Both the position numbers and the translations under genes were made by a program. Shown here piece by piece: positions 5,840 to 38,982 of a stretch of 42,270 nt of DNA. The DNA is from Blautia sp. (GTDB lineage: Bacteria > Bacillota > Clostridia > Lachnospirales > Lachnospiraceae): contig JAFVGK010000143.1 of the NCBI GenBank assembly GCA_017475035.1, forward strand, positions 1 to 42,270, in the 5' to 3' direction. The notes under the pieces were generated by a model. That model saw only the letters and a list, made by a program, of their open reading frames with translations, did not search any database and was not told the DNA's origin. The first letter of the stretch is position 1; the number at the start of each line of letters is the position of its first letter.

Positions 5840-5854
5840 ACCCCTTTCTCTATA

Positions 5855-5883
5855 TTGACAGTTTTCTGCGAGCGTTGTATAAT
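5855..5883 (+). promoter_or_regulatory. Consensus sigma-A promoter of binding-protein gene
   Basis: TTGACA (5855-5860), a 17-bp spacer and TATAAT (5878-5883) form a perfect consensus. It lies 15 bp after the preceding stop codon and 119 bp before the ATG at 6003. Confidence 0.88.
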
Positions 5884-6002
5884 CATTTTTGTAGAAAATC
5901 ACGGTACCGGACAGGGGTACAGCTCCTGCGAAGGGCAATATGCGCCATCATAAATATAGAAGGTATCGCTTTATGATGTATGGTGCAAGAAGGAGGGTTA
6001 CT

Positions 6003-7226
6003 ATGAAGAAAAGAATTGCTTTGTTGTTGTCTTGCCTGCTGGCAGCCGGCAGCCTGAGTGTCGGAACCGGAGCGGAGGAGAAGGATTACTCTGATTATAC
6101 GATCCGCATTTATTCCAATTCCAACTCTACGGAGCGTACTACATGGCTGATCCATGAAGCAGAGGATGCGGGATTCTCGATCAGCATTGACGACAATTCT
6201 GTTATTTCCGGAGATACAGCCGCCATCCAGGCCGCAAACGAAAATAAGGACGGAGATATCATCTTCGGACTGAACGAGGTTCGCTGGAGCCAGCTGATCA
6301 ACGGCGATTATGAAAATCTTTCTGTGATGGAGTGGACGCCCTCCTGGGCAGAAGAAGTCGGAAATTATGCATATCCGGACAAGGCTTATGGCCTCGTGAT
6401 CCAGAACGTCCTGATGCTCTATCGTAATGATGAGCTGGGCACAAATGGAGAAGAGCTTCATTTTGATCACTGGGCGGATGTGGTGAACTGCGGTTATCCA
6501 TGGTATCGTCAGAATAAAGTCGGCGGTACGACTAACGCCAATATCAATTCCGCGATTCTTTACGCGTTTACCGATCCCGAGTCTGAAGCAGGCGGGATCT
6601 CTCTGGACGGATGGAAAACCCTCTGGAACTACTGCGCGAACGGAACATATTCTTCGGATGATTCCTACAAGTATGGTTTTGAGCCGCTGAATAAAGGCGA
6701 TGTTGCGGTTTCCAGCTATTATTCTTCCTCCCTTTACGGACAGATTGATGCGGCGGCAGAGAGCTCTGAGCATCCGCTTCTTGGCGCTCTGGAGCCGGAA
6801 AACTGGGATCTTGTGGACATCGCGGACGGCACCTACTACATTGCAGAGTATCTTGGCATTCTGAACAAAGACGGACGTACCGAGGAGCAGACTGAGGCTG
6901 TCAAGGCCTTTGCGGAGTGGTTCGGCAGTGCCGAAATCCAGGCTGCCTGGGGTGATGAGTTTGATTCCTTCCCGTGCAATGAAGTTGCGGCAGAAGAGCT
7001 CTATCCGGATGGAATTCCCGCGATTTATGAACTGCCGAATTTCTCATTGGAGACTGTAGAAGGCACTGATATGACATACGCGGAGTATGTCGGAGCGCAT
7101 ACCGCGGAGTGGACAAATATCATGACGAATCTTGGCTTCTATTGGGCAGACGCTTCCGCAGCCCCGGCAGAGCCTGACTGGGAAAACCTGGATTGGGCGA
7201 CGCTGACGCAGGCAGCCGGAGAATAA
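6003..7226 (+). CDS. ABC transporter substrate-binding protein (iron/polyamine type)
   Basis: This extracytoplasmic solute-binding protein (407 aa) probably feeds the importer encoded just downstream (7687-10618). A Sec signal peptide ends near the A-E-E around residue 24. The rest looks like a type II periplasmic-binding fold of the SBP_bac_1/6 kind. Cys11 lies inside the hydrophobic core and does not form a good lipobox. I chose the ATG at 6003 because AGGAGGG lies 5-11 bases upstream and the signal peptide begins there. The gene has its own strong promoter and a terminator (7287-7319), so it is transcribed apart from the ATPase gene. The ligand (ferric iron, polyamine, thiamine or other) cannot be read from the sequence. 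Confidence 0.8.
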   Translation: MKKRIALLLSCLLAAGSLSVGTGAEEKDYSDYTIRIYSNSNSTERTTWLIHEAEDAGFSISIDDNSVISGDTAAIQAANENKDGDIIFGLNEVRWSQLINGDYENLSVMEWTPSWAEEVGNYAYPDKAYGLVIQNVLMLYRNDELGTNGEELHFDHWADVVNCGYPWYRQNKVGGTTNANINSAILYAFTDPESEAGGISLDGWKTLWNYCANGTYSSDDSYKYGFEPLNKGDVAVSSYYSSSLYGQIDAAAESSEHPLLGALEPENWDLVDIADGTYYIAEYLGILNKDGRTEEQTEAVKAFAEWFGSAEIQAAWGDEFDSFPCNEVAAEELYPDGIPAIYELPNFSLETVEGTDMTYAEYVGAHTAEWTNIMTNLGFYWADASAAPAEPDWENLDWATLTQAAGE

Positions 7227-7686: not shown

Positions 7687-8700
7687 ATGATTAAACTTAA
7701 TAATATCGTTGTACAGTTTGATGATTTCACCGCACTGCATGGCATCAATGTCCACGTGAAGGAAGGAGAGTTTTTCACTTTCCTTGGGCCGTCAGGCTGC
7801 GGTAAGACGACGACCCTGCGTACCATCACCGGTTTTATAGAACCGACCTCGGGACAGGTGGTCATGAAGGATAAAGATATAACCCATGTGCCCATTGAAG
7901 ACAGGGATATTGGCATTGTCTTTCAGAGCTACGCGCTGTTTCCGACGATGACGGTACGAGACAACATTGCTTTCGGACTGAAAATTAAGAAAATGAAAAA
8001 ACCGGAGATTGACCGGAAGGTACGTGAGATTGCCTCAAAGGTTGATTTATCGGAGGAACAGCTCGCAAAGGCCGTATCCCAGCTGTCCGGCGGACAGCAG
8101 CAGCGTGTGGCGATTGCCAGGGCGCTGGTGACGGATCCTGCGATTATCTGTATGGATGAACCATTGTCCAACCTGGATGCCAAGCTTCGTGTGCAGCTGC
8201 GGAACGAACTGAAAAAGATGCAGAAGGATTTCGGCATTACCACAATCTATGTCACCCATGACCAGGAAGAAGCCCTGACCCTTTCCGACCGGATTGCGGT
8301 ATTCAATAAGGGAGTCATCGAACAGATCGGGACTCCAAATGAGGTATACAACCATTCCGCGACGGAGTTTGTCTGCAATTTTATCGGTGATATCAATTTC
8401 CTTTGCCCGGAAGTGGTAAAGAAGCTTGCAGATCAGGGCGCGAAAGTTGATCCGGCCAATCACAATTATATCCGCCTTGAGAGAGTACACGTCAACACGG
8501 AGCCTCTGCAGTCACAGGTATCTTTCGAAGGCAAGGTGGAGAGCAGGGAATACTACGGGCTGTATATTAAATATGTCATTGACATCGGCCCGCAGATGAT
8601 CAAGGTGATCGAAAAAAATGACGGTGTTCGCATTTATGAGGAAGGCCAGCCGCTGAAAGTCGTAATTGATCCTGTGGATATCATGGCCTATCCGGCTTAA
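7687..8700 (+). CDS. ABC transporter ATP-binding protein (PotA/FbpC-like)
   Basis: This is the cytosolic ATPase of the importer whose binding protein is at 6003 and permease at 8723. It is 337 aa. Walker A GPSGCGKTT (34-42), signature LSGGQQQRVAIARAL, Walker B IICMDEPLSNLDA and the switch histidine in VTHDQEEAL are all present. The C-terminal ~90 residues form a TOBE-like regulatory domain of the polyamine/iron/maltose importer class. The start ATG follows a purine-rich TGAGGG. It is separated from the binding-protein gene by a terminator and 460 bp of repeats, and continues with only 22 bp to the permease gene. Confidence 0.9.
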   Translation: MIKLNNIVVQFDDFTALHGINVHVKEGEFFTFLGPSGCGKTTTLRTITGFIEPTSGQVVMKDKDITHVPIEDRDIGIVFQSYALFPTMTVRDNIAFGLKIKKMKKPEIDRKVREIASKVDLSEEQLAKAVSQLSGGQQQRVAIARALVTDPAIICMDEPLSNLDAKLRVQLRNELKKMQKDFGITTIYVTHDQEEALTLSDRIAVFNKGVIEQIGTPNEVYNHSATEFVCNFIGDINFLCPEVVKKLADQGAKVDPANHNYIRLERVHVNTEPLQSQVSFEGKVESREYYGLYIKYVIDIGPQMIKVIEKNDGVRIYEEGQPLKVVIDPVDIMAYPA

Positions 8701-8722
8701 CCGAAAGAGGGGAGGCGGTCAG

Positions 8723-10618
8723 ATGAATACGAGAGCTAGAAAACGACAGAGAAATATGTGGATTCTCCGTATTTTGGGCATTGGGTTTTTCGCCTATCTT
8801 TTCTTTGGCTTTATGCTTATGCCCTGTCTGAATACACTGTTAAGTATCTTCCGCGCGAAAAACGCCGCGGGAGAGACCGATCCTTTTGCCGTCATCCGCT
8901 TTTTCTTCGCCGGGAATATGCGCAAGTATGTGTGGAATTCGCTGAAGCTGGCACTCTGTCTGGTGGTTACCGTTAATATTGTCGGTATCTCCATCGTTCT
9001 TCTGACAGAGTATTTTGACATCAAAGGCGCGAAAATCCTTCGTCTCGGATATATGACGACACTGATTTATTCCGGTGTAGCCCTTGTTACCGGATACCTG
9101 TTTTTATACGCTCCGGACGGGATTCTTACCACGGCGGTCGCCAATGCTTTTCCGGGCTTTGACAAAAGCTGGTTTACGGGATTTCGGGCGGTTTTGTTTA
9201 CCATGACCTTTGCCTGTACCAGCAATCACGCACTGTTTCTGCGGAACGCGATCCGGGGGATTGACTATAATACTGTGGAAGCAGCAAGAAATATGGGCGC
9301 AAAGCCTTTCAAGGTTCTGAGAAAGGTGGTTTTCCCCACCCTGATCCCGACAATGTTTTCCCTGACAGTCATGACCTTTATCACCGGTCTTTGCGCCATG
9401 TCCGCGCCGACTTTGCTGGGTTATGATTCGATCAATCCTGAAATTGTCCGTCTTGCCGGTTCTTCTGCGGCGGACGAGGCTTTCCCGCAGGCCAGGGCGG
9501 CTTTATTGTCCATTATTCTGGCTATGTTCACGATTATTCTGCTTACGACGCTTTCCGCCTATGAGAGAAGAGGACATTATCTTTCCGTATCCAAGACGAA
9601 AGCAAAGCTTGTAAAACAGAAAATCACAAACCCCGCGGCAAATGTTCTGGCGCATATTTATGCCTATGTTCTGTTTGTGATCTATATGACACCCGTAGTG
9701 ATGATCGTGATTTTTTCTTTCCAGACCTATGGGGCGATCCGCATGAAAAAGCTGGATCTGTCACAGTGGACATTTATTAATTTCTTTGGAAAGCAGGATT
9801 ATGAGTATATGACAAACCGGGGGAAATATAAGCTGCGTGAAGGCGCGATTTCCGGTGTGTTTTCCAACGAGGCTACATTAGGCGGCATTAAGCTGAGCTT
9901 CATACTTTCTGCCATTGCCGCTGCGATGGCCTGTGTCATTGTCGTAATGGCCTGCAATTATATTTTCAAACACCGTAAGGAAAAATCCGGAGTGGCGCTG
10001 GAGTATGCCCTGCTTTTCCCGTGGCTCCTGCCGACGATCCTGATCTGCTACTCATACAGATCCTTCTTTAACAGCAACAATGTCTGGTATGTCGGGAATA
10101 TGAACCTTTATTATGCCCAGCGGGTCCGGATGCTGATCGTGATGGCTTATACGGTGACGAAGCTGCCTTTCTCCCTGAGAATGATCAAGGCATCCTTCTA
10201 TATGATTGACGAGGAGCTGGAGGATGCTGCCAGAAATCTGGGCTCGTCCCCGATAAGGACTTTTCTGAGGGTAAAACTGCCTATTATTCTGCCCAGTGTT
10301 CTGGCTGTGTTTGCTTTGAATTTTAATGCTTTGTTTACAGAGTATGATATGTCCGCAACCTTTGCAAGCTCCTACGGCACGAGCTATGCCATGGTGATCC
10401 AGGCAATGTGCCGGGAGGAAGGCCTGTACGGATATAATGTCAATGCCAGCGGGAGACGATGCGCGTCGACGGTTTTTATTATGCTGGTTTCCGGACTGAT
10501 CCTTTACCTTGTGTATGGCGTCGGCGCCAGGGATCTGGAAGAACGACTGGAAATCCGTAAAAGAAGGAAGGAACGGCTGGCCAGACTGCTGCCGCACAGG
10601 AAAAAGAATGATCCGTAA
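8723..10618 (+). CDS. Fused two-domain ABC permease (FbpB-like)
   Basis: This inner-membrane protein (631 aa) forms the whole translocation pore as a single chain. It has two homologous permease halves of about six segments each. Each half carries the EAA coupling loop that contacts the ATPase: EAARNMGAKPFKVLRK in the first half and DAARNLGSSPIRTFLR in the second. I chose the ATG at 8723 because GGGGAGG lies 10 bases upstream; upstream in-frame ATGs fall within the ATPase gene. Fused permeases are typical of ferric-iron and related importers rather than of the PotB/PotC polyamine systems, so iron is somewhat favoured. This remains an inference. Confidence 0.88.
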   Translation: MNTRARKRQRNMWILRILGIGFFAYLFFGFMLMPCLNTLLSIFRAKNAAGETDPFAVIRFFFAGNMRKYVWNSLKLALCLVVTVNIVGISIVLLTEYFDIKGAKILRLGYMTTLIYSGVALVTGYLFLYAPDGILTTAVANAFPGFDKSWFTGFRAVLFTMTFACTSNHALFLRNAIRGIDYNTVEAARNMGAKPFKVLRKVVFPTLIPTMFSLTVMTFITGLCAMSAPTLLGYDSINPEIVRLAGSSAADEAFPQARAALLSIILAMFTIILLTTLSAYERRGHYLSVSKTKAKLVKQKITNPAANVLAHIYAYVLFVIYMTPVVMIVIFSFQTYGAIRMKKLDLSQWTFINFFGKQDYEYMTNRGKYKLREGAISGVFSNEATLGGIKLSFILSAIAAAMACVIVVMACNYIFKHRKEKSGVALEYALLFPWLLPTILICYSYRSFFNSNNVWYVGNMNLYYAQRVRMLIVMAYTVTKLPFSLRMIKASFYMIDEELEDAARNLGSSPIRTFLRVKLPIILPSVLAVFALNFNALFTEYDMSATFASSYGTSYAMVIQAMCREEGLYGYNVNASGRRCASTVFIMLVSGLILYLVYGVGARDLEERLEIRKRRKERLARLLPHRKKNDP

Positions 10619-14780: not shown

Positions 14781-16520
14781 ATGAAACAATTGATGCTGGG
14801 CAACAAAGCTGTTGCCCGTGGGCTTTATGAGGCAGGTGTCTGCATGATCTCCAGTTATCCCGGCACACCGAGTACGGAGATCACCGAGGAAGCGGCGAAG
14901 TATGACGAGATTTACTGTGAATGGGCACCGAATGAAAAGGTAGCTCTGGAGTCTGCGTTTGGAGCATGCCTTTCCGGCCGACGCGCGTTTTGCGCTATGA
15001 AGCATGTAGGACTGAATGTTGCCGCAGATCCTTTGTATACCATGTCCTATACCGGCGTAAATGCCGGCCTGGTTATCGGCGTAGCGGATGACGCAGGGAT
15101 GCATTCTTCCCAGAACGAACAGGACAGCCGTCATCATGCGATCGCGGCCAAGGTGCCGATGCTGGAGCCGTCTGACTCTGCGGAAGCTTTGGAATTTGCG
15201 AAGCTGGCTTATGAAATATCTGAGGAATATGATACGCCTGTGCTGATTAAAATGTGCACACGTGTTGCCCATTCCCAGTCGATTGTAGAGCCGGGGGAGC
15301 GGGAGGTTCCGATTAAGCCCTATGAGAAGAATATCGGAAAATATGTCATGATGCCGGGGAACGCAAAGCGCCGTCATCCCTTTGTGGAGGAGAGGACAAA
15401 GGCTCTGACCGAATATGCGGAAACCGCGCCTGTCAACCGGATCGAGATGGGCGGCACAGAACTGGGCATTATTACGGCTTCCACCTCTTATCAGTATGTA
15501 AAAGAAGTTTTTGGAGACAGCGTCAGCGTCCTGAAGCTCGGCATGGCAAATCCTCTTCCGGAAAAGCTGATCCGGGATTTTGCTTCCAAAGTTGACCGGC
15601 TCGTCGTAGTCGAGGAGCTGGATCCTGTCATCGAAACCCATGTCAGAAAACTTGGCATTCAGGTTTCAGGCAAGGATATCCTTCCTATGGTGGATGAATT
15701 TTCACAGAACCTGATTGCGAAGGCTTTGGGCGGTGAAGTTCATGCCGGCCGCGCGCTGGATGAGTCGATTCCGGTGCGGCCTCCTGTTATGTGCGCGGGA
15801 TGTCCCCACAGAGGGCTTTTCTTTACCCTGAAGAAAAATAACTGTACCGTACTGGGAGATATCGGCTGCTATACATTAGGAGCCGTGCAGCCCCTCGCCG
15901 CGATGGAAATGACTTTGTGCATGGGCGCTTCCATCGGAACCCTTCATGGCTTTAATAAGATGCTCGGCAGTGAGAGCGAGGGCAAAACCGTCGCCGTGAT
16001 CGGTGATTCCACGTTTGTGCATTCCGGCATGACCGGTCTGGCGAATGTAGCCTACAATCAGTCCAATTCGACGATCATCATTCTTGATAATTCGATTACC
16101 GGCATGACCGGTCATCAGCAGAATCCGACCACGGGATACAACATCAAAGGGGATCCGGCCGGAAAGATTGACCTGGAATCCCTGTGCCGCGCGATGGGCT
16201 TTGAACGCGTGCGTGTCGTCGATCCTTATGATCTGGCACAGTGCGATGAAGTCCTGAAGGAGGAGCTGGCAGCTGCCGCGCCTTCCGTGATTATTTCCAG
16301 AAGACCCTGTGCCTTGCTCAAGTACGTTAAGCATAAAGCGCCTCTGATTGTCAACGAGGAGAAGTGTATTGGGTGTAAATCCTGTATGAGGATCGGATGT
16401 CCGGCAATTTCCATGAAGAATGGAAAAGCCCGCGTAGATTCGACCCTGTGTGTCGGCTGCGGCGTGTGCAGCCAGCTGTGCAGGAAAGATGCGTTTGAAT
16501 CAACGGCAAAGGAGGCGTAA
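14781..16520 (+). CDS. iorA: Indolepyruvate:ferredoxin oxidoreductase, alpha subunit
   Basis: This is the catalytic subunit, which uses thiamine diphosphate to decarboxylate aryl pyruvates (from Trp, Phe, Tyr) to aryl-acetyl-CoA and passes electrons to ferredoxin. It is 579 aa. N-terminal pyrimidine-binding and central transketolase-like domains are followed by the TPP-binding domain (GDIGCYTLG and GDSTFVHSGMTG through LDNSITGMTGHQQNP). A C-terminal ferredoxin module carries the IOR-type cluster CX2CX2CX4CP (529-541) and a second CX2CX2CX3C (557-567). GGAGGAG precedes the ATG. iorB follows after 6 bp, with its ribosome site inside the iorA end. Confidence 0.95.
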   Translation: MKQLMLGNKAVARGLYEAGVCMISSYPGTPSTEITEEAAKYDEIYCEWAPNEKVALESAFGACLSGRRAFCAMKHVGLNVAADPLYTMSYTGVNAGLVIGVADDAGMHSSQNEQDSRHHAIAAKVPMLEPSDSAEALEFAKLAYEISEEYDTPVLIKMCTRVAHSQSIVEPGEREVPIKPYEKNIGKYVMMPGNAKRRHPFVEERTKALTEYAETAPVNRIEMGGTELGIITASTSYQYVKEVFGDSVSVLKLGMANPLPEKLIRDFASKVDRLVVVEELDPVIETHVRKLGIQVSGKDILPMVDEFSQNLIAKALGGEVHAGRALDESIPVRPPVMCAGCPHRGLFFTLKKNNCTVLGDIGCYTLGAVQPLAAMEMTLCMGASIGTLHGFNKMLGSESEGKTVAVIGDSTFVHSGMTGLANVAYNQSNSTIIILDNSITGMTGHQQNPTTGYNIKGDPAGKIDLESLCRAMGFERVRVVDPYDLAQCDEVLKEELAAAAPSVIISRRPCALLKYVKHKAPLIVNEEKCIGCKSCMRIGCPAISMKNGKARVDSTLCVGCGVCSQLCRKDAFESTAKEA

Positions 16521-16526
16521 ATACTG

Positions 16527-17099
16527 ATGGAAACAAAAAACATCATGATTGTCGGCGTCGGCGGTCAGGGATCGCTTTTGGCGAGCAAGCTGCTCGGACA
16601 TCTTTTACTCTCCCAGGGCTATGACGTCAAGGTATCCGAAGTCCATGGCATGTCCCAGCGCGGAGGCAGCGTCGTTACCTATGTGCGCTATGGCGACCGT
16701 GTCTATTCCCCGGTGATTGACCAGGGTGAGGCTGATTTTATCGTTTCTTTTGAATTGCTGGAAGCAGCCAGATGGCTTCCATACCTTAAAAAAGATGGAC
16801 AGATCGTGACCAATACCCAGCAGATGGACCCGATGCCTGTGATTACCGGGGCGGCAGAATACCCCCTGGATCTTGTGGAAAAGATGAAGGCTGCCGGTGC
16901 GAAGGTGGACGCGATGGACTGCTTAAAGCTTGCCAAGGAAGCGGGCTCTGCGAAGGCAGTGAATATTGTGCTGATGGGGAGGCTGTCTCACTACTTTGAC
17001 CTCCCCGAGGAAGCATGGATGGCTTCCCTGGAGGCAAATGTACCCGCAAAATTCCTTGAGCTGAATAAAAAAGCCTTCGCTTTAGGAAAAAACGCTTAG
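16527..17099 (+). CDS. iorB: Indolepyruvate:ferredoxin oxidoreductase, beta subunit
   Basis: This is the partner subunit of IorA, corresponding to the gamma domain of 2-oxoacid:ferredoxin oxidoreductases. It is 190 aa, the usual length. The GVGGQGSLLASKLLG start and the HGMSQRGGSVVTYVRYGD stretch are characteristic of this domain. AAGGAGG lies 13-19 bases upstream of the ATG, inside the end of iorA, so the genes are co-translated. paaK follows after 136 bp that contain only a small CCGCT-GAGG-AGCGG hairpin. Confidence 0.95.
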   Translation: METKNIMIVGVGGQGSLLASKLLGHLLLSQGYDVKVSEVHGMSQRGGSVVTYVRYGDRVYSPVIDQGEADFIVSFELLEAARWLPYLKKDGQIVTNTQQMDPMPVITGAAEYPLDLVEKMKAAGAKVDAMDCLKLAKEAGSAKAVNIVLMGRLSHYFDLPEEAWMASLEANVPAKFLELNKKAFALGKNA

Positions 17100-17235
17100 A
17101 ATCGCGGGAACAGCCCCGCTGAGGAGCGGTGATCCTGCAGCCACACGGAATCCGCTCATTTAGCACTGAAAGATTAAGATACCACATTGACCTGCATACG
17201 GACCGAAATGAAACCGGACAGAAAGGGAAAAAGTA

Positions 17236-18537
17236 ATGGAGAGATACTATCAGGAAGACATTGAGACCGCTTCTCGGGAGAAAATCAAAGCGATCCAGGA
17301 TGAGAAGCTGGTCGCACAGGTGAAGCACGTTTGGGATAACGTACCTTACTATCGCAAAAAGATGGAGGAAAAGGGAGTGACGCCGGATGACATAAAGTCC
17401 TCTGATGACCTCTGCAAGCTTCCTTTCCTGTCTAAAGCGGATCTCAGAGAGGCTTATCCTTACGGACTTGTCGGCGTACCGCTCAAGGACTGCGTGCGGA
17501 TCCAGTCGACTTCAGGCACAACCGGGAAACGTGTCGTAGCCTTTTATACCCTCGAGGATATTGACCTTTGGGAAGACTGCTGCGCACGCGCGATCGTCGC
17601 GGCAGGCGGCACGGATGAAGACGTCTGCCAGGTATCGTACGGTTATGGGCTGTTTACAGGAGGCCCCGGCCTGAACGGCGGTTCTCATAAGGTTGGCTGT
17701 CTGACTGTTCCGACCAGCTCCGGAAATACAGACCGCCAGATCATGTTTATACAGGATCTCCATACGACGATCCTTTGCTGCACGCCGAGTTACGCGGCAT
17801 TTTTGGGGGAGCGTTTTAAGGAATTGGGCTATGGGCCGGATGAGATTCCGTTAAAGGCGGGTATTTTCGGCGCAGAGGCCTGGAGCGAGGAAATGCGTCA
17901 GGATATCCAGAACACGCTGGGAATTAAGGCGTATGACATTTACGGCCTGACGGAACTGTCAGGACCCGGCGTAGCCTTTGAATGCTCCGCGCAGCAGGGC
18001 ATGCATATCAACGAAGATCATTTTATCGCGGAGATTATCGATCCGGATACGGAGGAGGTTCTGCCGGAAGGCACGCAAGGCGAGCTGGTCTTTACCGCCA
18101 TAGACAAAAAAGCTTTTCCGCTGCTCCGCTACCGTACGAGAGACATCTGCACATTGACGAGGGAAAAATGCTCCTGCGGACGTACCCATGTCCGCATGGC
18201 GAAGCCGAAAGGACGTACCGATGACATGCTGATTATCCGCGGCGTCAACGTATTCCCGAGCCAGATTGAGACGGTTCTTCTGAACCATGGCTATGCCGCG
18301 AATTATCAGATTATCGTCGGACGTGTCAATAATACGGATACTCTTGACGTCCAGGTTGAAATGACTCCTGAGATGTTTACGGATAACGTAGGTGAGATTG
18401 AAGCACGTCAGAGAGCACTTGTAGATGGCCTGAAATCCATGCTTGGCCTCAAAGCGAAGGTTTCACTGGTAGCGCCGAAGAGCATTGCGAGAAGTGAGGG
18501 CAAGGCTGTACGTGTGATCGATAATCGCAAGATCTGA
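17236..18537 (+). CDS. paaK: Phenylacetate-CoA ligase (AMP-forming)
   Basis: This cytosolic adenylate-forming enzyme interconverts aryl acetates and their CoA thioesters. It is 433 aa, the usual PaaK size. The P-loop STSGTTGKRV (91-100), the YGLTELSGPG adenine-binding motif and the YRTRDICTL stretch are all visible, as is the C-terminal lid domain with GRTDDMLIIRG. Beside iorAB its likely job is to handle the indole-, phenyl- or hydroxyphenylacetyl-CoA made by IOR. The physiological direction cannot be decided from sequence. Confidence 0.95.
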   Translation: MERYYQEDIETASREKIKAIQDEKLVAQVKHVWDNVPYYRKKMEEKGVTPDDIKSSDDLCKLPFLSKADLREAYPYGLVGVPLKDCVRIQSTSGTTGKRVVAFYTLEDIDLWEDCCARAIVAAGGTDEDVCQVSYGYGLFTGGPGLNGGSHKVGCLTVPTSSGNTDRQIMFIQDLHTTILCCTPSYAAFLGERFKELGYGPDEIPLKAGIFGAEAWSEEMRQDIQNTLGIKAYDIYGLTELSGPGVAFECSAQQGMHINEDHFIAEIIDPDTEEVLPEGTQGELVFTAIDKKAFPLLRYRTRDICTLTREKCSCGRTHVRMAKPKGRTDDMLIIRGVNVFPSQIETVLLNHGYAANYQIIVGRVNNTDTLDVQVEMTPEMFTDNVGEIEARQRALVDGLKSMLGLKAKVSLVAPKSIARSEGKAVRVIDNRKI

Positions 18538-31919: not shown

Positions 31920-33335
31920 TCATATCATGTTTTCCGGATGGAACACCTCATCGAATCTTTCCGGGCTGAGAAAACCCAGCCTGACGCAGGCTTCTTTCAG
32001 GGAGATATCCTCTGCGTAAGCCAGCTTTACCGTCTTTGCGGCATTCTCATATCCGATGTACGGATTCAGAACCGTGACCAGCATCAGGGAGTTATAAAGA
32101 TTCTGATGCATTTTTTCTTTGTCTGCTTCGATCCCGCAGGCGCAGTTTACATTGAAGGATGAAATCGACTCAGCGAGCAGCCTGACCGACTGCAGGAAAT
32201 TATAGGCGATTACCGGCATGAAGACATTCAGTTCAAAGTTGCCCTGAGATGCCGCAAACCCGATTGCCGCGTCGTTGCCCATTACCTGGACGGCGACCAT
32301 GGTGACTTGTTCACATTGCGTGGGGTTTACCTTTCCGGGCATGATGGAGCTGCCGGGTTCATTTTCCGGAATATGGATTTCTCCAAGGCCGCAGCGGGGA
32401 CCGCTGGCAAGATGGCGGATATCATTGGCGATCTTCATCATATCTGCTGCCATGGCTTTTACAGCGCCGTGGGCAAAGACGATCTCGTCCATGGAGGTCA
32501 GGGCATGGAATTTATTCGGCGCGGTTACGAAGCTTTTGCCTGTCAAAGAAGAGATATTCGCGGCAACGAGAGTATCAAAACCTTCCGGGGCATTCAGGCC
32601 GGTTCCGACAGCCGTGCCTCCAAGGGCAAGCTCTGAGAGAGGCCTGATGCCAAGGCGGATCATTTCGATATCTCTCTCTAAGGAATTCCTCCATCCGCTG
32701 ATTTCCTGGGAAAAACTGATCGGCACGGCGTCCTGCAGATGGGTTCGTCCGCTCTTTACGATGCCCTGATTTTGATCCTCCAGCTGCCGGAATGTCTCAA
32801 TCAGTTTTTGCGCTGCGGGAATCAGACGGTCTTCCAGAGCCGTTACCGCACTGATGTGCAGTGCGGTCGGAAACGTATCGTTGGAAGACTGGCTCATATT
32901 GACATCATCATTAGGATGGATCCGTATTGTGGATGAATCCGGGGATTTCTCAGAAATAATCTCTGCATCGCGCAGGATTTGATTTGCACGATTCGCAATG
33001 ACTTCATTTACATTCATATTTGACTGGGTACCGGAACCGGTCTGCCAGACAACCAAAGGGAAATGCTCTCTCAGGCTGCCTGATATTACTTCCTCAGCCG
33101 CCTGAGAGATGGCGGCAAGCTTTGCTTCCGTAAGTTTTTCGGGCTTCAGCGCATGGTTTGTCAAAGCCGCCGCTTTTTTCAGAATGCCAAAAGCCTCGAT
33201 GATCTCCTGCGGCATCGTTTCCATCCCGACCCCGATCCGGAAATTCTGACGGCTTCTCTCTGTCTGCGCGCCGTAATATTTATCGGCAGGTACTTTCACT
33301 TCTCCCATAGAATCATGTTCAATACGAAACTCCAT
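31920..33335 (-). CDS. fumC: Class II fumarate hydratase
   Basis: This oxygen-stable cytosolic enzyme interconverts fumarate and L-malate. It is 471 aa, the normal length. SGRTHLQDAVP (His199) and the superfamily signature GSSIMPGKVNP (328-338) are intact. The TQSNMNVNEVIANR block supports fumarase over aspartase, but those two paralogues are close. The promoter TTGACA-N17-TATAGT lies at 33431-33459. The leader between them contains an inverted, truncated repeat D. It is transcribed divergently from the dehydratase operon. Confidence 0.93.
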   Translation of the reverse strand: MEFRIEHDSMGEVKVPADKYYGAQTERSRQNFRIGVGMETMPQEIIEAFGILKKAAALTNHALKPEKLTEAKLAAISQAAEEVISGSLREHFPLVVWQTGSGTQSNMNVNEVIANRANQILRDAEIISEKSPDSSTIRIHPNDDVNMSQSSNDTFPTALHISAVTALEDRLIPAAQKLIETFRQLEDQNQGIVKSGRTHLQDAVPISFSQEISGWRNSLERDIEMIRLGIRPLSELALGGTAVGTGLNAPEGFDTLVAANISSLTGKSFVTAPNKFHALTSMDEIVFAHGAVKAMAADMMKIANDIRHLASGPRCGLGEIHIPENEPGSSIMPGKVNPTQCEQVTMVAVQVMGNDAAIGFAASQGNFELNVFMPVIAYNFLQSVRLLAESISSFNVNCACGIEADKEKMHQNLYNSLMLVTVLNPYIGYENAAKTVKLAYAEDISLKEACVRLGFLSPERFDEVFHPENMI

Positions 33336-33828: not shown

Positions 33829-34602
33829 ATGGCTAAGATTATCGCGTTGGCAGGAAAGGGAGGAGTGGGAAAAACCACGTTGTGTTCCGCTGTCGTACGG
33901 ATACTTTCCGAGAATTTTCCCAAAGAGAGAATACTGGCAATCGATGCGGATCCTGCCGTAGGCTTGTCTGTGGCGCTTGGCGTTGAGACAAAGGAGACTC
34001 TGGATGACATCCGCCGGGAGATTATCAGCAAGGCAGAACAGGGCGAAGGCAAGGAAGCGATGGAGCTTCTGGGAGAAGCCCGGTACCGCATTTTTGATGC
34101 TTTGACAGAGACAGATGGTTTTGCTTTTCTGGCGATCGGAAGGCCGGAGGGTGCCGGATGCTATTGCTCGGTCAACAACTATTTAAAAGAAGTCATTCAT
34201 ATGCTCAGCCGGGAATTTGATTATGTTGTCATTGACGGGGAGGCAGGGATTGAGCAGATTAATCGACGCGTGATGGAGAAGGTCTCCCATCTGATTCTGG
34301 TCACGGATCCATCCGCGAAGGGGATTCAGGTTGCCGGGACGATACGTTCCGTGGCGGACGAGCTTGTCATGTATGAAAAATGCGGCGTCATTATCAATCG
34401 TGTAGAGGATATGAGCGTCATTCCCTGTTTACAGATTGACGGCGCTGAGATTCTCAGTATCGTGAAAAGAGACGAAGCACATGCGAAAAATGATATTTTA
34501 GGAAAAAGCATTTTTGAACTTCCTGTGACAGCGCCTGTTTATCTGGGAGCAAAGGAAGCATTGGAAAAACTTGGGATCATAGACGGAGGAAAGGCAGAAT
34601 GA
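33829..34602 (+). CDS. CooC-type nickel-insertion ATPase
   Basis: This is a MinD/ParA-class P-loop ATPase related to CooC/AcsF, factors that insert nickel into CO dehydrogenase or acetyl-CoA synthase. It is 257 aa, the normal CooC size. Deviant Walker A GKGGVGKTT (9-17), AIDADPAVGL, and a CYC (Cys111-x-Cys113) that corresponds to the metal-binding CXC motif of CooC are visible; the VIDGEAGIEQINRRVM stretch is also CooC-like. AGGAGG precedes the ATG. The stop overlaps the next start by 4 bp (ATGA), so it is the first gene of a coupled operon. That it serves this operon's enzyme is inference. Confidence 0.88.
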   Translation: MAKIIALAGKGGVGKTTLCSAVVRILSENFPKERILAIDADPAVGLSVALGVETKETLDDIRREIISKAEQGEGKEAMELLGEARYRIFDALTETDGFAFLAIGRPEGAGCYCSVNNYLKEVIHMLSREFDYVVIDGEAGIEQINRRVMEKVSHLILVTDPSAKGIQVAGTIRSVADELVMYEKCGVIINRVEDMSVIPCLQIDGAEILSIVKRDEAHAKNDILGKSIFELPVTAPVYLGAKEALEKLGIIDGGKAE

Positions 34603-35399
34603 GATATTTCGGAGGCTGCGATGTAGGTTCCACCTATACAAAAGCCGTAATACTGGATGAAACCGGAAAAATCGTATCATCGACGACGATCAAGAGCAAG
34701 ATCCGCTCTCAGGAATCTGCTGAACTGGCCATGCATGAGGTCCTTGAAAAAGCCGGACTGCTGTCTTGTGAGGATCTGGCATATCTGATCGGAACGGGAT
34801 ACGGCAGAAATAAGGTACCTTTTGCGGATGAAAATATATCAGAGATTTCCTGCCACGCCATGGGCGTGCATGTGACAGATCCTTCGGTAAAGGCTGTCAT
34901 TGATATCGGAGGCCAGGACGTCAAGGGAATCGATGTGGACACAGACGGAACTGTAAGGAATTTTGCCCTGAACGATAAATGCGCTGCCGGGACCGGTCGG
35001 TTTTATGAGGCTATGGCACGCTCCTTTGAAATGAGTCTGCCCGAATTTTCCAGGCTTTCGCTGAAAGCAAAAAATGTCATTCCGATTACGGCACAGTGCA
35101 CCGTATTTGCGGAATCAGAAGTGATCAGCCTGGTTGGCGAGGGAAAGCCTGTGGAAGAGATCGCTGCAGGCATTCAGATGGCAGTTGCGAAAAGATGCTT
35201 TGTGATGGCCAAAAAGGCGGGGGCGGTGGATCACGTTGCCCTGACCGGGGGCTGTGCGAAAAATGAAGGCTTGAAGGCAGCCATCGAGAAGGTTCTGAAA
35301 ATAAAGGTGGTAGAGCTGAAAACGGATCCCCAGCTGATGGGAGCGCTGGGGGCCGCGGAATACGCGAGACAAAAGGGAATGGCTCATGGTGCTTTATGA
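34599..35399 (+). CDS. 2-hydroxyacyl-CoA dehydratase activator (HgdC/BadF family)
   Basis: This ATP-driven activator is a homodimeric [4Fe-4S] protein that injects one low-potential electron into the dehydratase at the cost of ATP. It is 266 aa, the usual length. The ASKHA-type phosphate loop GCDVGSTYTKAV, the second loop DIGGQDVKGI and the two cluster cysteines, Cys128 in NDKCAAGTGRF and Cys167 in TAQCTVFAESE, are all in place. It overlaps the CooC-like gene by 4 bp and the following gene by 14 bp. Confidence 0.93.
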   Translation: MRYFGGCDVGSTYTKAVILDETGKIVSSTTIKSKIRSQESAELAMHEVLEKAGLLSCEDLAYLIGTGYGRNKVPFADENISEISCHAMGVHVTDPSVKAVIDIGGQDVKGIDVDTDGTVRNFALNDKCAAGTGRFYEAMARSFEMSLPEFSRLSLKAKNVIPITAQCTVFAESEVISLVGEGKPVEEIAAGIQMAVAKRCFVMAKKAGAVDHVALTGGCAKNEGLKAAIEKVLKIKVVELKTDPQLMGALGAAEYARQKGMAHGAL

Positions 35400-36141
35400 T
35401 ACGCTGATCGATCGGCTGAAAGAACTGACGGAAAATCTCGAATCTGCAGTTTATCTCTATGACGAAAATCGCAGGTGGCCTGAAAATGAGAATTATGAGA
35501 TGATCCTGCAGAAGGATATGTCGATCGAACTGGGAACCGGAGGAAAAAGTGCGGTAAATTATACCTGTGTAACGACAAGGACGGATGATTTTGCCGAAGA
35601 TGGAATCCGGATCTTCGGACCGGATTTTTCCGATATACAAATGCCTGTGAATTATGCCCGTGTCTGTGAAGTGGTGATAAAGGAAGATAAAGGGATCGAA
35701 TCGGATGCCAGAAGAATATATAAGCTGCTTCAGGATATTGATTTTGTGAAATATCATATTTATCCCAAGGGCTATATGATCCGCACTTCCGGCCAGTCGC
35801 CAAGGGAACAGATCAGGATCAGCAAAAAGGCTTTGAAGGACGGAATTTCTTTTGCTTCCATCGGAAATACATATATTCGGCATTATAAGAAAAATCCGGC
35901 TGTCCGACGTGTCCGGGTCAGCTTTTTTACAACCGATGCGGTGGACTATGCCGAATTGAAAAAATCCGCTGAAGCCGCCGCCCGGATCAGGAATTCTCTC
36001 TCCGATATCGGCAAGGGGCTTCCGAAAGACTGCGGTAATTGCGGAATAAAGGAAATCTGCGCCGACATTGTGGGCCTGAAGGAGCTGCACTTTGGGGCTT
36101 TGGGGGAAAACATCCCTGACCTGAAGACAACACAGGAATAG
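35386..36141 (+). CDS. Stand-alone acetyl-CoA synthase central-domain-like protein (CdhC/AcsB family)
   Basis: This protein has 251 aa. From memory of AcsB/CdhC, three stretches resemble the central domain of acetyl-CoA synthase: an ELG(G)-type strand with EDGIRIFGPDF (71-81), EQIRISKKALKDGISFASIG (141-160), and YKKNPAVRRVRVSFFT (167-182). Full acetyl-CoA synthase is about 730 aa. Here the N-terminal CODH-contacting domain and the C-terminal nickel A-cluster domain are missing. Instead the protein ends with its own cysteine group CGNCGIKEIC (216-225), suited to a metal or Fe-S site. It overlaps the activator gene by 14 bp. Its role is unknown; a corrinoid/CO or electron-transfer function would be speculation. 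Confidence 0.6.
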   Translation: MVLYDTLIDRLKELTENLESAVYLYDENRRWPENENYEMILQKDMSIELGTGGKSAVNYTCVTTRTDDFAEDGIRIFGPDFSDIQMPVNYARVCEVVIKEDKGIESDARRIYKLLQDIDFVKYHIYPKGYMIRTSGQSPREQIRISKKALKDGISFASIGNTYIRHYKKNPAVRRVRVSFFTTDAVDYAELKKSAEAAARIRNSLSDIGKGLPKDCGNCGIKEICADIVGLKELHFGALGENIPDLKTTQE

Positions 36142-36207
36142 CTGAAAATGCCGGTAAAGAAAGATATCGATCATGAATGAAAGCAGTGCTACACGTCAGG
36201 GGGATTA

Positions 36208-37401
36208 ATGAAAGATCTGAAGCATTTTCTCTTTTTTGAGGAACTGGTACGCTCATCCAATAATGAACTTGTCAGAAAAGCAAAGGAAGAGGGACGGGTG
36301 TGCATAGCATATGTGTGTGAGAATACGCCGGAGCCGCTGTTTCATCTGGGCAATTGTTTTGGCGTCCGTCTGTCTGCTCCCAATACCGGTTCCATGGATA
36401 TCGCGACATATTATATGACCAGTTTTTTATGCGAGACCTCTAAAGCTTTGCTCGAGAGGGCCATAGAAGGCGGATATAATTTTGCCGATTGCCTGATTGC
36501 GCCGGATGGCTGTACGATGATGAACCGGTGTGTGGAAAATACGGAGCTTCTGAAGGCAATCGAAAGCCAAAGGGAATCTTTTTTTTATGAGCATATGGAA
36601 ATACCCATGAAGACCGATGAGAATGGAGTAAACCTTCTGGTGAACCAGTGCCGGAACCATATCCTGGAACCGCTGAGAAAGACCTTTGGGGTTGACATAT
36701 CCGATCCGGCGATGCGAAAGGCAGTCGCGCGGCATAATACGGTATGCCGGCTGATACAGCAGATCGGCGAATTCCGGAAGGATGTCCGGCCAGTCATTAC
36801 AGGCTATGAATTTGCGGTGCTTACGCTCGCCACCTATGTCTGTCCGAAGGATATGCTGACGGAAGCCCTGCAGGAAACGCTGGATGAACTGAAAAGCCGT
36901 GAGCCCGATGAGAAAAAATACCGGGCAAGGCTTTTGATCGTGGGTTCGGAGGCAGATGATCCTGAGTTCATCAGACTGATTGAGGAATGCGGGGCTTATG
37001 TCTGCGCGGACAGATATTGTTTTGGGTCGCTTCCCGGGAGAGTGCCGATCGAATTGACGGACGAGGAGGATGCGCTGACGCAGATCTGCCGCCATTATAC
37101 TTATCAATGTCAGTGCCCCCGCCAGATGAATATGGACAAGGTGTACGCACGTAAGGCTTATGTCAATGATCTGGCAAAGGAATACCGGGCGGACGGCATT
37201 GTCTATCAGCAGATCAAGTTTTGTGACCCGTGGGCGTATGAAAGGGTAACAGGCGCAGCCGCTCTGAGGGAGGAATACAATTACCCGGTTCTGTCCGTGG
37301 ACCGGCCTTATAATATCCACTCCTCAGCCGGACAGATGAGAACCCGGATTCAGGCCTTTGTTGAAAGCATAGAGGTGAAAAAGCTGCGGGGGGCGAATTA
37401 A
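36208..37401 (+). CDS. 2-hydroxyacyl-CoA dehydratase / benzoyl-CoA reductase family subunit
   Basis: This is one of two homologous large subunits of a radical CoA-ester enzyme, 397 aa. It matches the HgdB/BcrB-type fold. Conserved Cys positions include CLIAPDGCTMMNRC (95-108) and KFCDPWAYE near the C-terminus. In known members these families carry [4Fe-4S] or double-cubane clusters and eliminate water from 2-hydroxyacyl-CoA or reduce aromatic rings. AGGGGG lies a few bases before the ATG. The next gene starts right after its stop (TAA-ATG). Substrate unknown. Confidence 0.85.
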   Translation: MKDLKHFLFFEELVRSSNNELVRKAKEEGRVCIAYVCENTPEPLFHLGNCFGVRLSAPNTGSMDIATYYMTSFLCETSKALLERAIEGGYNFADCLIAPDGCTMMNRCVENTELLKAIESQRESFFYEHMEIPMKTDENGVNLLVNQCRNHILEPLRKTFGVDISDPAMRKAVARHNTVCRLIQQIGEFRKDVRPVITGYEFAVLTLATYVCPKDMLTEALQETLDELKSREPDEKKYRARLLIVGSEADDPEFIRLIEECGAYVCADRYCFGSLPGRVPIELTDEEDALTQICRHYTYQCQCPRQMNMDKVYARKAYVNDLAKEYRADGIVYQQIKFCDPWAYERVTGAAALREEYNYPVLSVDRPYNIHSSAGQMRTRIQAFVESIEVKKLRGAN

Positions 37402-38982
37402 ATGGAAGTGATCAAAAACAGTAAAAAGAAGCCGGGGGATCAGAACCTTGGCGTGCTGTATAACGACGGGAAGGTAAGAAAACGACGGGAGTGGCGCGGC
37501 TTTAAGGATACCATGTATGATTTCGGGAAATGGCTGCAGCTGTGGGGAATCATGATCGATGTATCCTTAAGCAGGGGCTTTCTGAAGGGTTTGTTCCGGT
37601 ATCGTTGGATGATCAACTATCTTGCTGTGCCTCATATGATAGACAAATTTACGATCGGGCAGCGAGACGAGACCCTCCGGATTACCCATATCAGCATAGG
37701 CTATGTCGTGAAGGACGTAGCTCTGACGATTAAGCGCTGCTTAAGAGGCGACCGGCGATGCGGCAATGACAGAAAATTCTCTGACAAGTGTGTCCTTGTC
37801 GATGAAAACGCGATGATTACATACCTGATGGGATTTCCTGATCTTACTGTGGTACAGAGAGAAGTTCCCACCATGTTTTCAGCGAACCTGATCAACCAGA
37901 ATTCGGCCGCACATTATCTGGATGTCGCGCAGACCTACGGGATTCCGGGAGATGTGTGTCCGATGCCTGAGACAGAGGCGGGTATCTCCATAGAAGACGA
38001 TTTTGTCGTGATGGGAAAATGCGCGGTACAGGTGAATACGACCTGTGACGGTTCCATGCTGGGAAATGCGATTATTGCGAAAAGGCTGGAAAAGGAATAT
38101 GGAATTCCCACTTATCAGATGGCATCTCCGCTCCGGCACCGCAATGAGGATGTTCAGGAATATGCGGCGGAGGAGATCAAAGGAGCGATTGCTTTCATTG
38201 AGGAAACCACCGGGGAGAAATGGGACTGGAAGGCTTATTTTGAGGCGGCTCACCGGGTCAATCTGACGACGCGGATGCGCTGGGAATGGCTGGATGTCAA
38301 CTCTACTCCTTATCCACAGTTTTTCGGGGCGGTATTTTCCCTTTATAATGATACCAATTATCTTGGAAACTGCGGCAGATCCACAGAATTTCCCTTGATC
38401 GATCAGAAAATCATGAAGCTGGTGCAAAGCGGTTATGAGCACAAGACCATGATGGCCTCGGAGTATCGTCACAGATGCATGGTCTGGGGAGTACAGCCCC
38501 AGTATGTGATTGATATGCTTTACTGGATGGTACTGTGCTGGGGCGTCGTTCCTTTGACGGACATGCTTTCCATGGTAATCGAGAAGGAGATTGCCGAGAC
38601 GGATACACCCGAAAACAGGGAGAAGGCTTATTATGACATGGCTTACCTGAGCGAGAACATGATCATGCGGAACCATACCCATGGAGGGTATGAAACTCTG
38701 GTAAATGAGCTTTGGGAATATTGTGAGAGAATGAATGCGGATATGGTCATGATGTGGGAACACATGTCCTGTAAGTCTTTGGTGGGAATGCATGGGCAGT
38801 TCGAAGAACAGGCCAGGGCAAGAGGTCTGCATCTGGTATGGGTATCTCATGACCTGTGTGACCCGCGGGTTTATTCCAGATCTGCGATCCGCAGCCAGTT
38901 TAATCAATACATGAGAACCGTCATGCAGGAGGAACCGCTGGATCCGTCGATCGAAAATCTGCCGGATGATGAAGCGTGGTGA
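37402..38982 (+). CDS. 2-hydroxyacyl-CoA dehydratase family large subunit
   Basis: This is the second large subunit, 526 aa, about 100 residues longer than usual HgdA/HgdB proteins. The extra length is mostly at the N-terminus (first ~110 residues), which is basic, then aromatic. Family features are PGDVCPMPETEAG, NTTCDGSMLGN, MMWEHMSCKSLVG and the C-terminal HDLCDPRVYS. The start ATG is immediately after the preceding stop; the GGGG-rich end of that gene serves as ribosome site. Repeat B starts 4 bp after the stop codon, so the operon appears to end here. Confidence 0.83.
   Translation: MEVIKNSKKKPGDQNLGVLYNDGKVRKRREWRGFKDTMYDFGKWLQLWGIMIDVSLSRGFLKGLFRYRWMINYLAVPHMIDKFTIGQRDETLRITHISIGYVVKDVALTIKRCLRGDRRCGNDRKFSDKCVLVDENAMITYLMGFPDLTVVQREVPTMFSANLINQNSAAHYLDVAQTYGIPGDVCPMPETEAGISIEDDFVVMGKCAVQVNTTCDGSMLGNAIIAKRLEKEYGIPTYQMASPLRHRNEDVQEYAAEEIKGAIAFIEETTGEKWDWKAYFEAAHRVNLTTRMRWEWLDVNSTPYPQFFGAVFSLYNDTNYLGNCGRSTEFPLIDQKIMKLVQSGYEHKTMMASEYRHRCMVWGVQPQYVIDMLYWMVLCWGVVPLTDMLSMVIEKEIAETDTPENREKAYYDMAYLSENMIMRNHTHGGYETLVNELWEYCERMNADMVMMWEHMSCKSLVGMHGQFEEQARARGLHLVWVSHDLCDPRVYSRSAIRSQFNQYMRTVMQEEPLDPSIENLPDDEAW

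Follow-up and report, generated by a model that had tools for sequence, protein, structure and literature searches.

The 42,270-nucleotide stretch of Blautia sp. DNA analyzed here (contig JAFVGK010000143.1; hereafter, the window) carries, at positions 33829-38982, a five-gene operon that joins a CooC-type ATPase, a dehydratase/reductase activase, a short protein derived from acetyl-CoA synthase (ACS), and two HGD-D subunits (Table 1). Our favored reading, held with about even confidence, is of a low-potential reductase that is driven by ATP, transfers two electrons, and belongs to the family that includes class I benzoyl-CoA reductase (BCR) and HGD-type enzymes; the operon would also supply it with a dedicated pair of metal-cofactor accessory proteins, the products of genes 1 and 3. 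The sequence itself shows the protein families, the cluster-ligand cysteines, the conserved co-location of the genes, a separate group of CooC proteins, and a host genome with no carbon monoxide dehydrogenase (CODH) or ACS over cut-off.

Proposed reductase subunits and predicted cluster ligands

A listing of open reading frames (ORFs) confirmed the five genes and reproduced the layout first described in a sequence-only reading of the window: genes 1 and 2 overlap by 4 bases and genes 2 and 3 by 14, a gap of 66 bases separates genes 3 and 4, and the start of gene 5 abuts the stop of gene 4. That the genes are linked, as that reading had claimed, is borne out by their relatives; the same five gene types occur in 25 of the 33 bacterial loci that carry gene 3, the other eight being cut by contig ends. 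Base composition does not shift at the operon. Nor does the operon have promoter or terminator sites in excess of shuffled sequences, and the idea that a clear pair of such signals holds it together was dropped.

Table 1. Genes of the operon and the cysteines aligned with known metal ligands, in window coordinates
Feature	Positions	Strand	Basis
Gene 1: CooC-type deviant-Walker-A ATPase, 257 aa	33829..34602	+	family and PDB sequence searches, tree
Gene 1 Cys111-x-Cys113, on the CooC metal-binding CXC	34159..34167	+	alignment; 37/37 rows
Gene 2: acyl-CoA dehydratase/reductase activase, 266 aa	34599..35399	+	TIGR00241
Gene 3: short acetyl-CoA-synthase-derived protein, 251 aa	35386..36141	+	PF03598, profile searches, hhalign
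Gene 3 C216-x2-C219-x5-C225, CxxC on the ACS A-cluster CxxC	36031..36060	+	hhalign alignment
Gene 4: HGD-D subunit, double-cubane type, 397 aa	36208..37401	+	PF06050, BzdN alignment
Gene 4 C37, C75, C102, C271, C303, C339, on BzdN ligands	36316..37224	+	alignment
Gene 5: HGD-D subunit, BzdO/HadB type, 526 aa	37402..38982	+	PF06050, BzdO alignment
Gene 5 C186, C215, C457, on BzdO Cys95/128/380	37957..38772	+	alignment

The proposed identities of gene 2 as the activator and of genes 4 and 5 as dehydratase-type subunits both stood. Gene 2 is a TIGR00241 acyl-CoA dehydratase activase (219 bits; cut-off 125), in which Cys128 is present in 48 of 49 rows of the family alignment and Cys167 in all 49, while genes 4 and 5 match PF06050 HGD-D at 278 and 104 bits, respectively (cut-off 28.4). 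Two HGD-D proteins and a BcrAD/BadFG activase, all over cut-off, are the hallmarks of the HGD/class I BCR family. The family alignments omit CooC loci without gene 3 (L091, L099, L106, and L108), and their sole archaeal copy is that of locus L110.

The six gene 4 cysteines align with BzdN Cys36, Cys73, Cys100, Cys263, Cys293, and Cys327, which, according to PMC11971306, hold an [8Fe-9S] double-cubane cluster that is proposed to store at least two electrons in BzdNO. Each of the 41 rows has all six, which are the only cysteines of the window's protein to be invariant; with this pattern, the best-fitting inference of the sequence-only reading is that of a double-cubane-type reductase with its own metal loader. 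In gene 5, the counterparts of BzdO Cys95, Cys128, and Cys380, which hold an open [4Fe-4S] cluster (PMC11971306), are cysteine in 42, 42, and 41 of the 43 rows, respectively; the protein also has an N-terminal extension of approximately 165 aa. The column of the catalytic BzdO His131, as read from the alignment, is occupied by Ser in 31 of the 43 rows; the others with a letter there have Asn, Met, Gly, or Thr. Because this histidine is not kept, the reaction would be expected to differ from benzoyl-CoA reduction, and from the alignment benzoyl-CoA itself is an unlikely substrate.

With BzdNOPQ, the class I benzoyl-CoA reductase, the operon shares two HGD-D subunits, six plus three cluster cysteines, and an ATP-driven activase, but the similarity is weak, His131 is lost, the operon adds CooC and gene 3, and no benzoate genes were recognized beside it. 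Gene 4 falls below the curated BCR models (98.6 bits against a cut-off of 453.8 for bzdN, and 71.5 against 421 for bcrC). Its best NCBIfam model is DCCP (NF040772; 129.8 bits, below the equivalog cut-off of 350), and it belongs to the same family, with the same cluster ligands; DCCP, however, is a homodimer, whereas the operon has two distinct HGD subunits plus the CooC/gene 3 pair and a score far under that cut-off.

We considered whether the operon instead encodes a redox-neutral (R)-2-hydroxyacyl-CoA dehydratase, or another radical dehydratase, whose double-cubane subunit is atypical and to which further accessory proteins have been added; we judge this improbable. Both large subunits are HGD-D proteins and the gene 5 profile aligns with HadB (2.5e-28) as it does with BzdO (1.2e-28), so that the operon, with its HGD-D pair and activase, resembles HadBC, a dehydratase that has its own activator. 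Yet HadC, the dehydratase beta subunit, has cysteine at four of the six double-cubane positions in the same alignment, while all 41 gene 4 rows have six. Taking an incomplete double-cubane cysteine set as our own mark of a dehydratase beta subunit, gene 4, with six of six, falls outside that class.

The CooC-type ATPase and the short acetyl-CoA-synthase derivative

Gene 1 matches the Pfam models AAA_31, CbiA, and ArsA over cut-off, as a protein of ParA/MinD type would, and among the NCBIfam matches listed none is over cut-off. In a search of PDB sequences, CooC (3kje) was the sole solved-structure match below 1e-6 (E 1.8e-17). The CYC of gene 1 aligns with the CYC of 3kje, and the CXC is kept in 37 of 37 family rows, giving gene 1 both the deviant Walker A and the metal-binding CXC by which CooC is recognized. 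PMC6006190 describes the strictly conserved Cys112 and Cys114 of CooC as binding Zn, with Ni competing, at the dimer interface. In a quick tree, the operon-linked CooCs group together (39 rows, the 37 named ones plus L089 and L091; SH-aLRT 98), and beside them stand 18 CooCs, 10 of which are in ACS-containing loci. The genome of L089 has gene 3 elsewhere, and that of L091 is without it. At L091, a 1.3 Mb Lachnospiraceae bin in which no gene 3 was found, the same-group CooC (7920-8747) stands alone among housekeeping genes; this solitary copy reflects either an incomplete genome or another use.

The claim that gene 1 is CooC-like rather than a generic MinD/ParA protein is upheld by the sole PDB match and by the grouping beside CooCs, which together ruled out the generic identity. 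It is hardly credible that gene 1 is an unrelated ParA/MinD-type ATPase, gene 3 a decaying ACS remnant, and their neighborhood incidental: the best library matches of gene 1 are general ParA/MinD models (over cut-off in Pfam, below it in NCBIfam), but the CooC match, the CXC in every row, the gene 3 cysteines kept across bacteria and archaea, and the five-gene content of all 25 uncut bacterial loci contradict that idea. With CooC, the nickel chaperone of CODH, gene 1 shares the Walker A, the CXC, an overall match to 3kje, and a neighboring group in the tree. It differs in sitting with HGD-type reductase genes, in a genome without CODH over cut-off (one match of 22.8 bits, in a frame of 534 aa). 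Five of 11 carrier genomes are without CODH over cut-off (the window's, G784, G763, G582, and G521, the last 64% complete), and in these CooC would thus serve something else.

Gene 3 matches PF03598 CdhC (35 bits; cut-off 24) over residues 38-184 only. Among PDB sequences, a profile built from 11 relatives had 16 matches with E no higher than 1, of which 15 are ACS/CdhC (best 3e-15) and the remaining one is a copper ATPase (E 0.33); aligned by hhalign with a profile of a 265-residue stretch of eight full-length ACS proteins, it gave 98.6% probability (E 1.2e-15). The C-x2-C-x5-C motif is kept in 41 of 42 family rows (the remaining row being gapped), in 20 of 20 archaeal copies, and in 19 of 19 copies of a separate check. 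Full ACS frames have C-x2-C-x8-C-x9-C and, about 90 residues on, CGC (28 of 28 read), which we take to be the ligands of the A-cluster [4Fe-4S] and nickel, respectively. Gene 3, at 251 aa, retains the ACS middle domain and the A-cluster CxxC, but it ends 26 residues past its motif and, in alignment with ACS, lacks the CGC nickel site, the fourth cluster cysteine, and the rest of the C-terminal A-cluster domain; the model of that domain, PF19436, has no match in the window's genome. For a methanogen, PMC11474084 names two thiols of the proximal nickel.

By these alignments, gene 3 is an ACS middle domain with a truncated A-cluster cysteine motif. The earlier description of it as AcsB/CdhC-like is therefore correct as to the PF03598 superfamily and too broad otherwise, the likeness being confined to the middle domain and a three-cysteine A-cluster remnant. 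A true acetyl-CoA synthase was ruled out, as the A-cluster domain is missing, and acetyl-CoA chemistry would not be expected of gene 3 because the nickel CGC site is missing as well.

The broader idea of the sequence-only reading, in which a radical CoA-ester enzyme is coupled to nickel-, CO-, or corrinoid-linked acyl chemistry, is in our judgment very improbable. It is prompted by the joint presence of CooC and a CdhC-related protein and by HypA/HypB-type nickel chaperones in linked flavoprotein operons (L202, and the HypA of L186), although HypA and HypB accompany that flavoprotein family anyway. The A-cluster is incomplete, with no CGC, fourth cysteine, or ACS C-terminal domain; five of the 11 carriers are without CODH over cut-off, the other six having one; and searches of the operon proteins against Pfam and NCBIfam found no corrinoid protein. 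The proposed CO/acetyl-CoA chemistry is not supported, given the missing CGC and the lack of an ACS C-terminal domain or over-cut-off CODH in the genome, and neither is the corrinoid-linked step, given the lack of a corrinoid protein in the operon; what is left of the idea is a possible nickel-linked step.

Distribution in bacteria and archaea

The 33 bacterial gene 3 loci comprise the window, 10 further loci, and 22 loci from the window's own family; the latter represent 22 of the 24 own-family carriers, the remaining two being the window and G763/L081. Conservation of the five genes in order, which the sequence-only reading had named as a check, was confirmed for content in the 25 uncut loci and not for order, which is shuffled: the most common arrangement is CooC-HGD-HGD-activase-gene3, and the window's own order recurs in L203 and L204. 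In profile searches, the short gene 3 was found in 24 of 299 own-family genomes at 212-274 bits, the listed full ACS proteins scoring at most 72, and a full ACS match (E 1e-15) occurs in one of those 24 carriers. It was also found in five of 291 genomes of the window's class, including the window's genome, and, at >150 bits, in six of 97 genomes of the G257 class of the same phylum. A first scan of genome contigs found no relative.

A CooC scan, of which the best 80 of 214 loci were considered, located the five-gene package in Clostridia and in one genome each of Spirochaetota, Myxococcota, and Bacteroidota, as well as in a Sigynarchaeota genome (L110), where the HGD genes are divergent. Among these best 80 loci, eight of the nine that bear HGD genes have gene 3, and the ninth, L089, lies at a contig end. 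Six loci (L080, L088, L090, L094, L185, and L187) have two HGD pairs and a single gene 3 and CooC; at L093 a second gene 3 is truncated by the end of the locus. A system peculiar to the window's genome was ruled out by these relatives in bacteria and archaea, and a plasmid-borne trait was likewise set aside, as a search of 72,556 plasmid records at E 1e-5 gave no match to gene 3. Next to the operon, a class II fumarase (window 31923-33335, reverse strand) has homologues of 77-79% in only two of 24 same-genus genomes searched.

The archaeal sample consisted of 195 genomes from the phylum of the L110 genome, probably Asgard. At 1e-20, 57 of them match; sorted by score and frame length, 45 have the short gene 3, and the other 12 matches resemble CdhC. 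At least four HGD-D copies are present in 42 of the 45 carriers versus eight of the 150 non-carriers (E 1e-40), the median being six copies in carriers and one in non-carriers. Gene 3 loci were examined for 20 of the 45 carriers, and CooC is encoded in the stretch in 18 of these and immediately beside gene 3 in 16. In L242-L253, the gene 3/CooC pair often lies beside pairs of FAD-linked oxidase and CCG-domain genes (checked by search for L251, where an SCP2-domain gene is also beside the pair), and URO-D-like genes lie beside the pair in L234 (checked by search) and L246 (by eye).

These patterns bear on whether genes 1 and 3 are accessory proteins or enzyme subunits. Because two HGD pairs can share a single gene 3 and CooC, and because archaeal gene 3, paired with CooC, tracks HGD-D-rich genomes, an accessory role is suggested rather than that of a subunit; where a single pair accompanies many HGD paralogues, it is better seen as a shared helper, for accessory work or for electron delivery, than as part of any single enzyme. 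Electron delivery is the core of a competing account, which we consider somewhat unlikely yet the strongest of the competitors: that gene 3 is a working redox subunit, with a [4Fe-4S] or Ni-[4Fe-4S] center, that relays electrons from a flavoprotein or ferredoxin to the activase or the reductase, CooC loading gene 3 alone. The C-x2-C-x5-C motif is indeed kept in nearly every copy (19/19, 41/42, and 20/20), gene 3 adjoins the activase in many loci, and one gene 3 per genome for several reductases would suit an electron carrier too. Set against this, the protein has just three such cysteines, near its C-terminus, and to our knowledge activases take their electrons from ferredoxin or flavodoxin without any gene 3-like protein.

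Neighboring genes and proposed function

In seven of the 22 own-family loci, a flavoprotein of 890-970 aa is encoded immediately after the cluster (that of L202 is interrupted by Ns); those of L186 and L192 are GltD/Nfn-like, the L186 protein having Fer4_20 and Pyr_redox_2 domains. A HypA-like gene follows the flavoprotein in six of the seven (L186 checked by search, the rest by eye), and L202 presents a single run of hypB-cooC-HGD-HGD-activase-gene3-flavoprotein-hypA (the CobW/HypB domain by search, hypA by eye). Across the 299 own-family genomes, from 298 genera, homologues of the flavoprotein (E 1e-100) are present in 19 of 24 carriers versus 43 of 275 non-carriers (p 1.6e-10). The window's genome encodes hypB-like, flavoprotein, hypA-like, and DUF5692 genes on another contig (L206, G000:C24, 4514-9643; the two hyp genes named by eye). 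At 851 aa, this flavoprotein ORF is shorter than most relatives and has one in-frame TGA in the aligned stretch, for which selenocysteine, a frameshift, and a pseudogene are candidate readings. In size, make-up, and accompanying HypA/HypB, the flavoproteins resemble, by description, those of IsrA-type operons (putative isoprene reductase), a family that HypA/HypB accompany anyway (PMC10134865); the flavoprotein here differs in being a neighbor outside the five-gene core and, in the window's genome, in lying on another contig.

Other loci have different partners. An old-yellow-enzyme-type reductase takes the place of the flavoprotein in three of the 22 own-family loci and in L080 (one checked, the rest by shared string). 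Acyl-CoA dehydrogenases lie beside the cluster in L031, L087, L088, and L110, with Etf in L110, and the neighbors in L095 include a CoA-transferase, enoyl-CoA hydratase, 3-hydroxyacyl-CoA dehydrogenase, and thiolase (both sets partly by eye). The flavoprotein, old-yellow-enzyme-type, and acyl-CoA/beta-oxidation neighbors together point to a reductive step on a CoA ester. The neighborhoods are, however, not uniform in their bearing on the dehydratase alternative: the GlcD/GlcF-like (named by eye) FAD-linked oxidase and CCG-domain genes of several archaeal loci hint at 2-hydroxyacids, as does a lactate racemase gene near the L185 cluster, whereas the old-yellow-enzyme-type C=C reductases fit a reductive pathway.

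Some further observations concern the surroundings of the clusters. At L185, the gene near the cluster encodes a nickel-dependent lactate racemase, LarA (5068-6342; above the NF033504 cut-off); this gene and others close by that look Etf-like by eye are on the strand opposite the cluster. Long proteins of 467-594 aa are encoded directly upstream of the HGD pair in L094 (1449-3065), L031 (12190-13971), and L087 (3506-4906); they are possible further partners, and that of L094 has no NCBIfam match at 1e-5. In the window itself, two genes stand at positions 14781-18537 (forward strand): one that passes the TIGR03336 cut-off for indolepyruvate ferredoxin oxidoreductase alpha and, after it, one that resembles phenylacetate-CoA ligase (500.7 bits against a cut-off of 646). 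The organism could make arylacetyl-CoA, and the reductase, 15 kb away, might act on substrates of that class. A Clostridiales-1 RNA (RF01699; 21327-21574, forward strand; 61.2 bits, gathering score 48) is the only Rfam match in the window at the gathering threshold.

Returning to the reading that we favor, a reductase with its own accessory pair, we infer the electron path, the two-electron stoichiometry, and the CoA-ester substrate, as well as the accessory function of genes 1 and 3 and the metal that they handle. The gene 2 activase would be reduced by an electron donor; in many relatives this is probably the linked flavoprotein of Nfn/GltD type, acting directly or via ferredoxin. ATP hydrolysis would then drive the electrons of the activase into the [8Fe-9S] double-cubane cluster of gene 4, which would store two of them and pass them to the open [4Fe-4S] cluster of gene 5. 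Reduction of the substrate, most probably a CoA thioester, would take place there. Gene 3, with one three-cysteine metal or Fe-S site, and CooC would assemble, metallate, or reductively condition the reductase. Since double-cubane enzymes are not known to need such a pair, the pair probably supplies something extra.

A number of results weigh against this reading. The three-cysteine site of gene 3 is a predicted metal or Fe-S site, and the prediction has its limit in the AlphaFold model, which has a pLDDT of 83.9 and is weak at the motif region (block means of 53-62). None of the 42 gene 5 rows with a letter in the BzdO His131 column has His, no CoA-ester gene directly adjoins the window's operon, and CODH over cut-off is present in six of the 11 carrier genomes. 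The strict test of operon-linked CooCs as one clade was rejected (approximately unbiased test, p-AU 0.00027), as L089 and L091 fall inside. The pair does not appear to be a general double-cubane need, because BzdNO and DCCP carry double-cubanes and we know of no CooC/gene 3 pair that accompanies them. In archaea, CooC is missing from the stretch in two of the 20 loci, and seven have an HGD or activase gene in the stretch, whereas in the other 13 the pair has neither nearby. The co-occurrence of archaeal gene 3 with HGD-D may partly follow kinship, which its P value (7e-31) ignores, and HGD-D copy counts have a ceiling near 10, set by the search. Single-protein queries found gene 3 in none of 59 same-genus genomes and gave 31 matches in 398 genomes of the phylum, only those of the window's genome and G257 being short copies. 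Given its absence from the same genus, the few fumarase homologues, and a contamination of 5.03% in the window's bin, this contig may belong to the accessory genome or be a foreign sequence in that bin.

The metal is a separate matter. Nickel involvement of some kind, which would cut across the other readings, is possible though on the unlikely side; it is suggested by the CooC and ACS history of the parts and by the HypA/HypB neighbors, with the reservation already made that these go with the flavoprotein. The nickel-linked step of the sequence-only reading thus survives as a possibility, while its CO/acetyl-CoA and corrinoid parts are unsupported. More specifically, and tentatively, these may be nickel-dependent double-cubane reductases, in which the pair delivers nickel to, or builds a Ni-Fe-S center on, gene 3 or the HGD pair, and the module, present in Clostridia, several other bacterial phyla, and what are probably Asgard archaea, may be ancient or widely transferred. 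As a possible analogue, the activation complex of methyl-coenzyme M reductase (PMC12176620) was set aside, since the text of that paper mentions neither 'benzoyl-CoA' nor '2-hydroxy'.

Among the papers listed in searches of the open-licence literature, none describes, by its title and start of abstract, a CooC or ACS-like protein with HGD/BCR-type genes. The parts belong to known families; their combination, how widely it occurs, and the pared-down ACS protein seem to be undescribed. Enzymes of HGD/BCR type carry out some of biology's hardest reductions, and the double-cubane cluster is regarded as nitrogenase-related. Were the nickel-dependent reading true, these ATP-driven enzymes would gain a heterometal step. 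The conserved pair from nickel/CO machinery points to an undescribed route for building or feeding an HGD/BCR-type enzyme, one that spans bacteria, some of them from animal guts, and archaea, and that gives a short, testable list of genes.

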